Positions 1,467 through 4,126 of a stretch of 49,478 nt of DNA are shown one piece after another; position 1 is the stretch's first letter, and each line of letters opens with the position of its first letter. The position numbers and the translations under genes are program-made. This DNA is from an uncultured Alphaproteobacteria bacterium (GTDB lineage: Bacteria > Pseudomonadota > Alphaproteobacteria > CADEGL01), in contig CADEGL010000019.1 in assembly GCA_902826885.1 (NCBI GenBank), positions 7,638 through 57,115 of the forward strand, read 5' to 3'. The notes beneath the pieces were generated by a model that was given only the letters and a program-made list of their open reading frames with translations, had not been told where the DNA came from and did not search any database.

Positions 1467-2312
1467 ATGGCCAAGACAGCCCCCGCGCGGGGAGACGGCG
1501 GCAAGAAGAGCTTCGCGTTCGTCGCGTCGCTGGAGAAAGGTATCTCGGTGCTGCGCGCCTTCGCGGGCGTCGATGGGCCGATGCGCCTGATCGACATCGT
1601 GGCCGTCACGAACCTCGAACGCAGCGCGGCACAGCGCCTGGTCTACACGCTGGAGGAGATGGGCCTGCTCATTCAGGACACGCGCACGAAGCTCTACGCC
1701 CTGTCGCCGCGCGTGTTGGAATTCTGCTTCGCCTATTTGCGCAACGACCGGCTGGCCAGCGCGGCCCTGCCCTATCTGCTCGAAGCCAACAAGGAATGCG
1801 AGGAAGCCGTCACCCTGGTCGAGCCTTACGACACCGAGGTCTATTACGTGACGCGCTTGCCCAGCCGCCGCGCCATCGCCATGGATGTGGTACCGGGCAC
1901 TTGGTTTCCGGCCTGGTGCATCGCGGCGGGCCGCGCGATCTTGGCCTTCCTGCCCGAAGGACGGGCGCGCGACATCGTCGAACGGTCCAAGCTCGTGCGC
2001 TATACGCCCAACACGCTGACCGGCAAGGCGCAGGTCATGGATGCGCTCAAAAAAGCGCGACAGGACGGTTACGCGGTATCGAAGGAAGAGTACGGCTATG
2101 GCGACATCTCAATCGCAGCGCCCGTGTTCGACGCCGCCAACGGCGTGATCGCGGCCGTCTCGATCTCCGGCCCAACCGATCGCTGGAACCTGGCCCAAGC
2201 CACGCGCGAGCTAGCGCCCCTGGCCCAAGCCGCCGCTTCGCGCATCTCGGATTCCCTTCGCGGTGCCTCCACGCTGGCCCAACCGGGACGTTTCATCCCG
2301 CCGCGGCGCTAA
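1467..2312 (+). CDS. IclR family transcriptional regulator
   Basis: A 281-residue DNA-binding regulator. The N-terminal winged helix-turn-helix spans roughly residues 15-80 (SLEKGISVLRAF ... RSAAQRLVYTLEEMGLL), and the C-terminal IclR effector-binding domain follows, with the typical GTWFPAWCIAAGRAILAF segment. IclR proteins sense small metabolites and usually control the adjacent catabolic gene. Its divergent orientation to the FAD oxidoreductase, with a 99-bp shared promoter region, makes that gene the probable target. The Shine-Dalgarno before the ATG is weak. Its 3' end overlaps the convergent DUF202 gene by 4 nt. The ligand is unknown. Confidence 0.92.
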   Translation: MAKTAPARGDGGKKSFAFVASLEKGISVLRAFAGVDGPMRLIDIVAVTNLERSAAQRLVYTLEEMGLLIQDTRTKLYALSPRVLEFCFAYLRNDRLASAALPYLLEANKECEEAVTLVEPYDTEVYYVTRLPSRRAIAMDVVPGTWFPAWCIAAGRAILAFLPEGRARDIVERSKLVRYTPNTLTGKAQVMDALKKARQDGYAVSKEEYGYGDISIAAPVFDAANGVIAAVSISGPTDRWNLAQATRELAPLAQAAASRISDSLRGASTLAQPGRFIPPRR

Positions 2313-2695
2313 AGCTTCGAAACAAAAGCGTGGGACAGATAAAAGAACAGCGACAAGCCGAGCAACGCCATCAGGGCTGCCAGCACGATGTCCGCCCGGC
2401 GGCCCGCCCCGTTGTACAATTCCACCCGTTCGATGGCCCGCGCGTTCGCGATGAATCGTATGCCGGCTAGAACCACCATGGCCGTGCCCAAGACAATCAG
2501 CGCCAAGCCGGCCACGTTGCCGAATTTCTGACCCGGCACCGAGAGGCTTCGCCCCGTCATCGACGGGGCCGCGATCTCCAAGAACAGGTCGAACTTCTCG
2601 ACGATGAAGCCGAACGCCATGACGGCGACGGAAGTGCGCACCCAAGCCAGGAAGGTGCGCTCGTTGGCGGAATGATCGCTGAAATTCTTGATCAT
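2309..2695 (-). CDS. DUF202 (YidH-like) inner-membrane protein
   Basis: A 128-residue membrane protein of the DUF202/YidH family. The N-terminus contains the hallmark ANERTFLAWVRTSVA segment, followed by three hydrophobic helices at about residues 20-43, 60-80 and 100-120. The family's function is not known. It lies on the same strand as, and 53 nt downstream of, the array of small Cys-rich exported proteins, so co-transcription is possible. It converges on the IclR gene with a 4-nt overlap. The Shine-Dalgarno is weak. Confidence 0.88.
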   Translation of the reverse strand: MIKNFSDHSANERTFLAWVRTSVAVMAFGFIVEKFDLFLEIAAPSMTGRSLSVPGQKFGNVAGLALIVLGTAMVVLAGIRFIANARAIERVELYNGAGRRADIVLAALMALLGLSLFFYLSHAFVSKL

Positions 2696-2748: not shown

Positions 2749-2862
2749 CTAACAGTTCGGCGCGCAGCCTTGTCCCATCGGCCCGCGCGGCTCGGCCTTT
2801 CCCGCCGGGCCGGATGCGACCGCCAAGCCCAGCACGGTCAGGAAAAGAAGCGCACGGATCAT
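2749..2862 (-). CDS. 37-aa exported Cys peptide, copy 2
   Basis: A tiny gene of 37 codons plus a TAG stop. The product starts MIRALLFLTVLGLAVASG and ends EPRGPMGQGCAPNC. A basic residue, a hydrophobic core and a small-residue AGKA site predict Sec export with cleavage before the Glu, which would release a 14-residue peptide with two cysteines as C-x3-C. It has the same length as the upstream copy and matches it over E-P-x-G-P-M-G-x-G-C-x2-N-C, so the pair arose by tandem duplication. Its ATG lies 6 nt after the stop of that copy, suggesting translational coupling. I recognise no family and assign no function. Conservation across the pair, despite divergent codons, argues that it is a real gene. 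Confidence 0.65.
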   Translation of the reverse strand: MIRALLFLTVLGLAVASGPAGKAEPRGPMGQGCAPNC

Positions 2863-2868
2863 CGGGTT

Positions 2869-2982
2869 TCAGCAGTTCGCGCCGCAACCGCGGCCCATGG
2901 GACCACCCGGTTCGGCATGGCCGGCGGTGACGGCCGCGGCGCCGATGCCAAGGGCAAGGATCAGAAAAAACACGCGCAGCAT
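2869..2982 (-). CDS. 37-aa exported Cys peptide, copy 1
   Basis: A gene of 37 codons encoding a protein that starts MLRVFFLILALGIGAAAVT and ends EPGGPMGRGCGANC. The N-terminus is a clear signal peptide; cleavage after AGHA would leave a 14-residue peptide with C-x3-C at its end. A good ribosome binding site (AAAGGAACG) lies just upstream of the ATG. The downstream gene is a duplicate with the conserved pattern EPxGPMGxGCxxNC. It shares strand and a C-terminal cysteine pair with the four small lipoproteins immediately upstream (3069-4126), from which it is separated by an 86-bp gap containing a hairpin. No known family is recognised. A metal-binding or thiol-redox role is only a guess. Confidence 0.7.
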   Translation of the reverse strand: MLRVFFLILALGIGAAAVTAGHAEPGGPMGRGCGANC

Positions 2983-3037
2983 CGTCGTTCCTTTCGCAAT
3001 GCCTCTATCCGGCACCACGACACGGTATCTTCGCCAG

Positions 3038-3067
3038 GCCGGCAGTGACCGGCGTCACAGGGCCGGC
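3038..3067. terminator. Hairpin between lipoprotein 4 and the 37-aa peptides
   Basis: Inverted repeats GCCGGC (3038-3043 and 3062-3067) and, inside them, GTGAC/GTCAC (3045-3049 and 3054-3058) form a strong stem just after the stop of the last lipoprotein gene. There is no T-run, so it may act as an attenuator or mRNA-end stabiliser rather than a classical intrinsic terminator. Confidence 0.4.
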
Positions 3068-3068
3068 G

Positions 3069-3347
3069 CTACCAGCACATGCCCGCTGGGCAGCTCGTCG
3101 ACATCATCATCTGCTGCTGCATCTGCACGGCGTTCATGTCCTGCTCCCGCTGTTTGTCGCGGTTCTGGGTGAGGGTCAGCATGCACTTGGCGAACGCGTC
3201 GCTGCCGGGTTTGTTGCCCTGCTCTTCGCAAGTTTTTTCATCCTGGGCTTTCAGCTCCGCCGACGAAGTGCAGGCCGCCAGCAGCAGTCCAGCCAGAAGC
3301 GGGGCCAGAAACCGGACCGTCCGTGCATCTCGCGCAACCTGCCGCAT
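3069..3347 (-). CDS. Small Cys/Met-rich lipoprotein, paralog 4
   Basis: A 92-residue predicted lipoprotein with a signal peptide ending in lipobox LLAAC. The mature part carries CEEQGNKPGSDAFAKCM, which fits the C-x3-G-x10-C-M motif shared by all four genes of this array. It then has a charged, probably helical stretch and a Met-rich tail ending CPAGMCW. The ATG at 3347, 7 nt beyond the stop of the preceding paralog, is preferred over an upstream in-frame ATG at 3374 that would overlap that gene. Closest sibling is the preceding gene, with the shared (N/Q)NR...DMNA-QM...MMM pattern. Function unknown; Met and Cys suggest soft-metal or redox chemistry in the periplasm, which is inference. Confidence 0.75.
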   Translation of the reverse strand: MRQVARDARTVRFLAPLLAGLLLAACTSSAELKAQDEKTCEEQGNKPGSDAFAKCMLTLTQNRDKQREQDMNAVQMQQQMMMSTSCPAGMCW

Positions 3348-3354
3348 CAGCCGG

Positions 3355-3603
3355 TCACCAGCACGCGCCGGCACACCCGGGCGCCATCATCATGCTTTCT
3401 TCCATCTGCATCGCATTCATGTCGTCGTTCCGCATCTTTGCGCGATTCTGGTCGACCACCATCATGCATTTGGAAAACGAATCCGAGCCCTGCTTGAAGC
3501 CGTAGCCCTCGCATTTCTTCTCGTCCGCCGCCTTTTGCTCGGCGGCCGTGGTGCAGGCCGCCAGCGCTAGGGCCAGCAGCAAGGAAAAAACGAGCCGTTT
3601 CAT
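3355..3603 (-). CDS. Small Cys/Met-rich lipoprotein, paralog 3
   Basis: An 82-residue predicted lipoprotein beginning MKRLVFSLLLALALAAC, with the lipid-modified Cys at residue 17. The mature chain contains CEGYGFKQGSDSFSKCM (C-x3-G-x10-C-M), a charged helix, then a methionine-rich end with MQM and MMM and the terminal C-x3-C motif CAGACW. The ATG at 3603 is chosen because GGAG lies at proper spacing before it; another ATG exists four codons upstream. It is the third of four tandem paralogs on this strand. No enzyme or domain is recognisable. The end resembles the C-x3-C terminus of the two 37-residue peptides downstream. Confidence 0.78.
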   Translation of the reverse strand: MKRLVFSLLLALALAACTTAAEQKAADEKKCEGYGFKQGSDSFSKCMMVVDQNRAKMRNDDMNAMQMEESMMMAPGCAGACW

Positions 3604-3651
3604 CAGGCACTCCATTCCCGGGTTAAGAACAACCCAGTCCCCATCGCGTCG

Positions 3652-3888
3652 TCAGCAGCAAGGCGCTCCCATCAGCGCCATGTCGTCCGCATCCATTTGC
3701 GCCTCGGAATCGTCCTCGAACTGCTGCTCCCGCGTGCTGGCGTATTTCTGCATGCAGTAATCCATGCCGTTGGTATCGGGTCGGAAGCCGTAACCTTTGC
3801 AGTAGTTCATGGCGTCCTGCCGGCGCTCCTTGTCGGATTCGCACGCCGCGAGCGCCAGGATCAGGAACGGAACGGCCAACCAGCGCAT
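3652..3888 (-). CDS. Small Cys-rich lipoprotein, paralog 2
   Basis: A 78-residue predicted lipoprotein with lipobox LAAC at residue 16. It contains CKGYGFRPDTNGMDYCM, matching C-x3-G-x10-C-M, followed by an acidic stretch with several Asp, Glu and Met residues, and ends GAPCC. It starts 7 nt after the stop of paralog 1, so the two are probably one transcript. It lacks the final Trp seen in the other three. The ribosome binding site is modest (TAGGG close to the ATG). The repeated architecture over four adjacent genes makes real coding very likely; the function is unknown. Confidence 0.78.
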   Translation of the reverse strand: MRWLAVPFLILALAACESDKERRQDAMNYCKGYGFRPDTNGMDYCMQKYASTREQQFEDDSEAQMDADDMALMGAPCC

Positions 3889-3895
3889 CCCTAGC

Positions 3896-4126
3896 CTACC
3901 AGCAGCACGCCATCATGGCGGAGTCCTGCACCTCCTGGGCATCCATCTCGTCGCTCATTTCCTTCTGGGCCTTGAGGTCGCTGTCGACCATGCACTTGTT
4001 GAAGCCGGGATCGCTTGGCATGACCCCCTTGGCGATGCACGCGCTTTCCGCGTTCGCGACCTCATCCTGCTTACTGATGCAGCCCGCCAGAGCGAGCGCC
4101 AACACAAGCGCGAGCAACGGTTTCAT
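3896..4126 (-). CDS. Small Cys-rich lipoprotein, paralog 1
   Basis: A 76-residue predicted lipoprotein, the first of the tandem array in transcription order. The signal peptide MKPLLALVLALALAGC ends in a lipobox with Cys16. The mature region has CIAKGVMPSDPGFNKCM, fitting C-x3-G-x10-C-M, then an acidic, Met-containing helix and the end MMACCW. A strong Shine-Dalgarno AGGGGGA precedes the ATG, so the promoter for the array should lie in the 123-bp gap up to the divergent SDR gene. The CxxxG...F..CM motif occurs in my memory in other alphaproteobacterial small lipoproteins of unknown role, but I cannot name a family. Confidence 0.78.
   Translation of the reverse strand: MKPLLALVLALALAGCISKQDEVANAESACIAKGVMPSDPGFNKCMVDSDLKAQKEMSDEMDAQEVQDSAMMACCW

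Follow-up and report, generated by a model that had tools for sequence, protein, structure and literature searches.

Paired genes for 37-residue peptides with a conserved Met/Cys tail in a genus of freshwater Alphaproteobacteria: possible soft-metal ligands of the cell envelope

CutF is a small exported protein whose CxxxC sequence, a putative Cu-binding motif, is required for the copper response; the mature protein has about 90 residues and a proline-rich C-terminus, and its gene closely precedes one for a metal response (PMC9973294). Bufferins and other MNIO-modified Sec precursors are encoded together with the MNIO enzyme, usually with a DUF2063 partner (PMC12452194). Here we compare with these systems two very short peptide genes found in a stretch of 49,478 nucleotides, called the window below. 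To our knowledge, bacterial secreted peptides of such shortness are almost never annotated, and the two genes are probably unannotated.

Two adjacent peptide genes and an unlinked third copy

A sequence-only reading of the window had described two genes of equal length for exported 37-residue peptides, 6 nt apart, and this description was confirmed (Table 1); that reading had missed the minus strand, a third copy and four adjacent lipoprotein genes with Cys-containing tails. The 6 nt between the stop codon of peptide 1 and the start of peptide 2 occupy positions 2863-2868. The ribosome binding site noticed earlier for the first gene is an AAGGA Shine-Dalgarno about 7 nt 5' of the ATG, so a translation signal is present; for peptide 2 a Shine-Dalgarno is practically absent, and its translation is probably coupled to that of peptide 1. 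A GTG start further upstream of peptide 1 (3018, 49 aa) was rejected: the frame is open, but it has no Shine-Dalgarno and is unmatched in copies 2 and 3. Both N-termini carry a basic residue followed by a hydrophobic core, with small residues at -3/-1 (GHA and GKA, by eye), and the cleavage site after Ala23 was likewise assigned by eye; Sec export is strongly suggested by these features. Searches of Pfam and NCBIfam with peptides 1 and 2 returned no family at E <= 1, and Rfam and PDB gave no match.

Table 1. Features of the peptide gene region, in window coordinates
Feature	Coordinates	Strand	Description
DUF202 membrane protein	2309..2695	minus	downstream of the peptides; same neighbour in the sister species; part in the system unproven
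Peptide 2	2749..2862	minus	37 codons and stop; putative Sec signal 1-23 (MIRALLFLTVLGLAVASGPAGKA), mature EPRGPMGQGCAPNC
Peptide 1	2869..2982	minus	37 codons and stop; putative Sec signal 1-23 (MLRVFFLILALGIGAAAVTAGHA), mature EPGGPMGRGCGANC
Hairpin	2994..3020	minus	10-bp stem, 7-nt loop, ends directly before the Shine-Dalgarno of peptide 1; predicted in both species
CRP-like palindrome	3043..3059	minus	TGTGACGCCGGTCACTG; identical in the sister species within a diverged spacer
Lipoprotein A	3069..3347	minus	C-terminal tail MMMSTSCPAGMCW
Lipoprotein B	3355..3603	minus	tail SMMMAPGCAGACW; alternative ATG at 3615; stop codon interrupts the sister orthologue
Lipoprotein C	3652..3888	minus	tail MALMGAPCC
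Lipoprotein D	3896..4126	minus	tail DSAMMACCW; gene run begins here

When peptide 1 (copy 1) was used as a query within the genome, it matched copy 2 (E = 3.4e-7) and a third paralogue, copy 3 (E = 6.2e-7), over the full 37 aa; matches of this extent show that the open reading frames are not due to chance, and peptides 1 and 2 are real genes. Copy 3 is unlinked: it maps to a different contig (G000:C1:222573-222686) and encodes exactly 37 residues (signal MIRVLLLLALIAVSASGIGQTAA, mature EPRGDMGRGCGANC). It stands alone, with a divergent FAD (flavin) monooxygenase gene on one side and a convergent DUF3309 gene on the other, neither of which gives a hint of metal, and with a strong GC hairpin at its 3' side.

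Conservation and distribution of the peptides

The 14-residue C-terminal parts of the paralogues share the consensus EPxGxMGxGCxxNC. Twelve columns are invariant in the four complete sequences (M1, R3, A23, E24, P25, G27, M29, G30, G32, C33, N36 and C37), and the last residue is the second Cys in every complete copy. When the three paralogues are compared with each other, pS in the mature part is 0.75-0.92 and pN 0.10-0.17.

The same pattern was seen in a sister species (G001), whose peptide sequence matches JAPLOM010000054, from a Lake Pavin alphaproteobacterial metagenome-assembled genome. The copy 1 orthologue lies at the same place and differs by 14 nucleotides, 10 of them at third codon positions (P = 0.002 against random placement); all three residue changes fall in the 23-residue signal, and the mature part is identical at 14 of 14 positions. 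The copy 3 orthologue adjoins the same monooxygenase gene and is cut by the contig end after residue 35. It shows 29 nucleotide changes, 17 at third codon positions (P = 0.0008 against random placement), with 10 residues changed in the signal, while the 12 visible mature residues are all identical despite four silent changes. The sequence-only reading had named conservation of GPMG and the Cys pair in relatives as a check, and breaks in frame as a refutation: copies 1 and 3 have mature parts without amino-acid change in the sister species, and no frame-breaking difference was found. These results show that the mature part is under strong purifying selection and the N-terminal signal-like segment is variable; this evidence for selection is direct, the product being frozen while the signal peptide drifts.

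Copy 2 is cleanly absent from the sister species, without a frame break. Silent sites differ more between copies 1 and 2 (pS 0.64) than between the two species (0.36), and a recent duplication was therefore rejected; a loss of copy 2 in the sister species appears more likely. Between its IclR gene and DUF202, the sister species has a 3.3-kb stretch that is not in the window (L054:2911-6141) and carries two large frames that look autotransporter-like by eye.

Within the searches made, the peptides were found only in one genus of little-known freshwater Alphaproteobacteria. A degenerate DNA pattern for the tail (G-x-M-G-x-G-C-x-x-N-C-stop), strict enough that it may miss more divergent relatives, was run against contigs of at least 3 kb from approximately 85,000 species genomes and gave 25 loci with no independent relative outside the genus. 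One of the 25 is the sister species. Another lies on a contig from Lake Pavin that had been assigned to a Verrucomicrobia bin (JAPLTE010000071.1) and was rejected as an independent homologue: over 1.5 kb around the peptide its identity with the sister species is 99.5-99.7%, this part is joined to unlike sequence, and the contig is probably chimaeric or mis-binned. The remaining loci were discarded as frames too short or as matches within long frames, for the most part those of a single Burkholderiaceae protein or of the alternative frame to it. Profile searches of 385 genomes of the class and 398 of the phylum (overlapping samples) gave weak matches only, mostly inside long frames, and plasmids and viral contigs yielded no peptide match. 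Other in-frame matches to an M-x3-C-x3-C-stop pattern, run over the family, were rejected, as they had no exported open reading frame.

Neighbouring lipoproteins and candidate control sequences

The peptide pair, at first seen as isolated, makes up with its neighbours a series of six short genes for exported products, each with a Cys-pair tail. Directly upstream on the same strand (from 4126 down to 3069) lie four small paralogous lipoprotein genes, each encoding a lipobox, an internal Cys pair and a tail at the C-terminus that contains Met and two Cys. In the order of the gene run the tails are MMACCW, MALMGAPCC, MMMAPGCAGACW and MMMSTSCPAGMCW; their ends read MAPGCAGACW (lipoprotein B), STSCPAGMCW (A), GAPCC (C) and MMACCW (D), with vicinal CC in lipoproteins C and D. 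At the sequence level the end of lipoprotein B aligns with MGRGCGANC of the peptide as M-x2-G-C-x3-C. By a simple hydrophobicity rule, the window holds 35 short open reading frames with a signal-like N-terminus; a Cys pair terminates exactly six of them, namely the consecutive genes at 2749-4126, and none of the other 29, against a background of 4.4% of frames. The other stretches scanned contained no further Cys-pair-tailed short exported frame besides copy 3 and the sister orthologues.

In the sister species, 0-1 residue is changed in the last 12 of the lipoprotein tails. The lipoprotein B orthologue (L004:1980-2231, minus) is otherwise well conserved and contains an in-frame TAA, reflecting either a pseudogene, the gene being lost, or a sequencing error. 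An AF2 model of lipoprotein B (pLDDT 68, a modest value), used for this point alone, predicts a helical hairpin with a low-confidence tail. The lipoprotein group of the window gave no Pfam match; its body, C-x3-GF-x-PGT-x(n)-C, is found again in other Alphaproteobacteria, where the tails differ (WPWYRSRYRYPYRYW and the like). Two of these outside relatives (L089, L090) also end near Cys pairs, in another arrangement, so that the mere presence of Cys in the tail may extend beyond this genus; Met-rich CC, CxxxCW and CxxxxCW tails were seen in this genus only. Lipoproteins with a C-x3-GF-x-P-x-T body form tandem pairs in several alphaproteobacterial genomes (L088, L091, L096, L097, L112, L114), and within 1.5-kb flanks none was seen beside DUF202 in other genomes.

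Paired Cys on six neighbouring exported products, together with the CC tails of lipoproteins C and D, could also point to a redox or structural role, in which the Cys pair would close a disulphide loop at the C-terminus, or link peptides and lipoprotein tails by mixed disulphides, and act as a thiol buffer or cross-linker. We consider this unlikely, as it leaves unexplained why Met is invariant and why the tails are rich in Met (MMM, MM), and no Dsb-type gene is adjacent. Lower still do we place a secreted signal or antimicrobial peptide, for which a short secreted product and paralogous copies differing at few positions can be cited: no gene for a dedicated outer-membrane exporter, a receptor, a protease or immunity lies alongside, the mature part is more conserved among the paralogues than the signal, and comparable tails occur on anchored lipoproteins. 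For the peptide signal that the sequence-only reading had offered, we found no positive evidence.

The 86-nt spacer before peptide 1 has diverged between the species except for two elements. The first, TGTGACGCCGGTCACTG, is a CRP-like TGTGA-N6-TCAC site, the sole such site in the window, or alternatively a small GUGAC-GUCAC hairpin; the second is the predicted hairpin at 2994-3020, whose pairing is kept through two one-sided changes (in two sequences only). In both species the spacer folds better than shuffled sequences (z = -2.65 and -2.38). The palindrome and the hairpin abutting the ribosome binding site suggest that peptide 1 is separately regulated inside the gene run; coming from two sequences, these candidate elements are a lead and not proof. 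No site for a metal-responsive regulator was identified.

A structured leader 5' of peptide 1, a small Sec-exported CxxxC product and a membrane-protein gene downstream would also suit a nascent-chain sensor of the CutF/CruR kind, in which a CxxxC leader senses metal during export and controls the downstream DUF202 gene, and genes of the CutF type (DUF2946) do occur elsewhere in the genome. However, the Cys pair sits at the extreme C-terminus with no proline-rich stalling segment behind it, the absence of Pfam matches at E <= 1 includes DUF2946, and no unusual degree of structure is seen in the spacer that precedes DUF202 (z = +1.54). Moreover, copy 3 is followed directly by no same-strand gene, only by the strong hairpin and the convergent gene, and conservation spans the mature product, including residues ahead of the Cys pair. 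We thus hold such a sensor to be improbable. The DUF2946 genes of this genome are two, about 3.2 kb apart (L163, L164; G000:C6:55235-59120).

Putative metal binding and comparison with known systems

The sequence-only reading had also entertained a modified peptide while seeing no modifying enzyme adjacent. None indeed lies beside the pair, nor beside copy 3, and the idea itself has been weakened. A distant enzyme, such as YcaO, would have to modify the Cys of the Sec precursor before export; MNIO RiPPs provide examples of Sec-signal precursors that contain Cys (PMC12452194), and the genome has a YcaO gene and SPASM proteins. Nevertheless, these genes are either on separate contigs or at distances above 80 kb, and a search of the assembly (96.9% complete) for MNIO (DUF692, PF05114) gave no match, while two control genomes were positive. 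With no MNIO found anywhere in the assembly, a modification of the bufferin or methanobactin type is unlikely, and we give modified peptides in general little credence. The single YcaO (784 aa; L159:1387-3741), on another contig, shows no link to the peptides; with the ABC-transporter-like gene next to it, it may belong to a cluster for a thiazole/oxazole peptide.

Taking into consideration the Met/Cys ligand type, the CxxxC motif of CutF and the coincidence of the peptide and lipoprotein tails, we infer that the peptides may bind soft metals. The precursor would be exported by Sec and cut by signal peptidase I after Ala23, giving a 14-residue periplasmic peptide, in which the Met29 thioether and the thiols of Cys33 and Cys37 would bind a soft metal, Cu(I) being the most plausible and Ag, Hg or Zn possible. 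A similar ligand tail would be displayed on the lipoproteins at the membrane surface of the envelope system, and the cluster would form a two-part envelope metal buffer, soluble and anchored, without post-translational modification. That the peptides and lipoproteins are unmodified thiol/thioether ligands of the envelope for soft metals is our best explanation, offered tentatively and at somewhat less than an even chance; the narrower proposal of a genus-specific two-part system, with free 14-residue ribosomal peptides and lipoprotein tails serving as an enzyme-free metallophore or buffer, is more doubtful. Neither a copper gene nor any other metal gene adjoins the peptides, and the periplasm could oxidize or degrade a 14-residue product with its two Cys; both points speak against metal binding. 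As for the metallophore suggested by the sequence-only reading, it is possible, but a periplasmic metal buffer fits better because no dedicated exporter or receptor lies alongside and a similar tail is found on anchored lipoproteins.

If metal binding is true, the peptides would stand beside methanobactins and bufferins as a counterpart that is encoded directly and carries no modification, inexpensive to make and test, and a first functional hint would be at hand for the alphaproteobacterial C-x3-GF-x-PGT lipoproteins. Compared with bufferins and other MNIO-modified precursors, the peptides have a putative Sec signal (with a cleavage site placed by eye), the Cys motifs and a proposed periplasmic metal binding in common, but have no MNIO in the cluster or the assembly. 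They resemble CutF/CruR (DUF2946) in being small and Sec-exported with CxxxC in the mature part, and differ in having 14 mature residues, ending at Cys and not matching DUF2946. From the C-x3-GF-x-PGT lipoproteins of Alphaproteobacteria they are set apart by lacking that body entirely, whereas their four neighbours are members of this group by body sequence.
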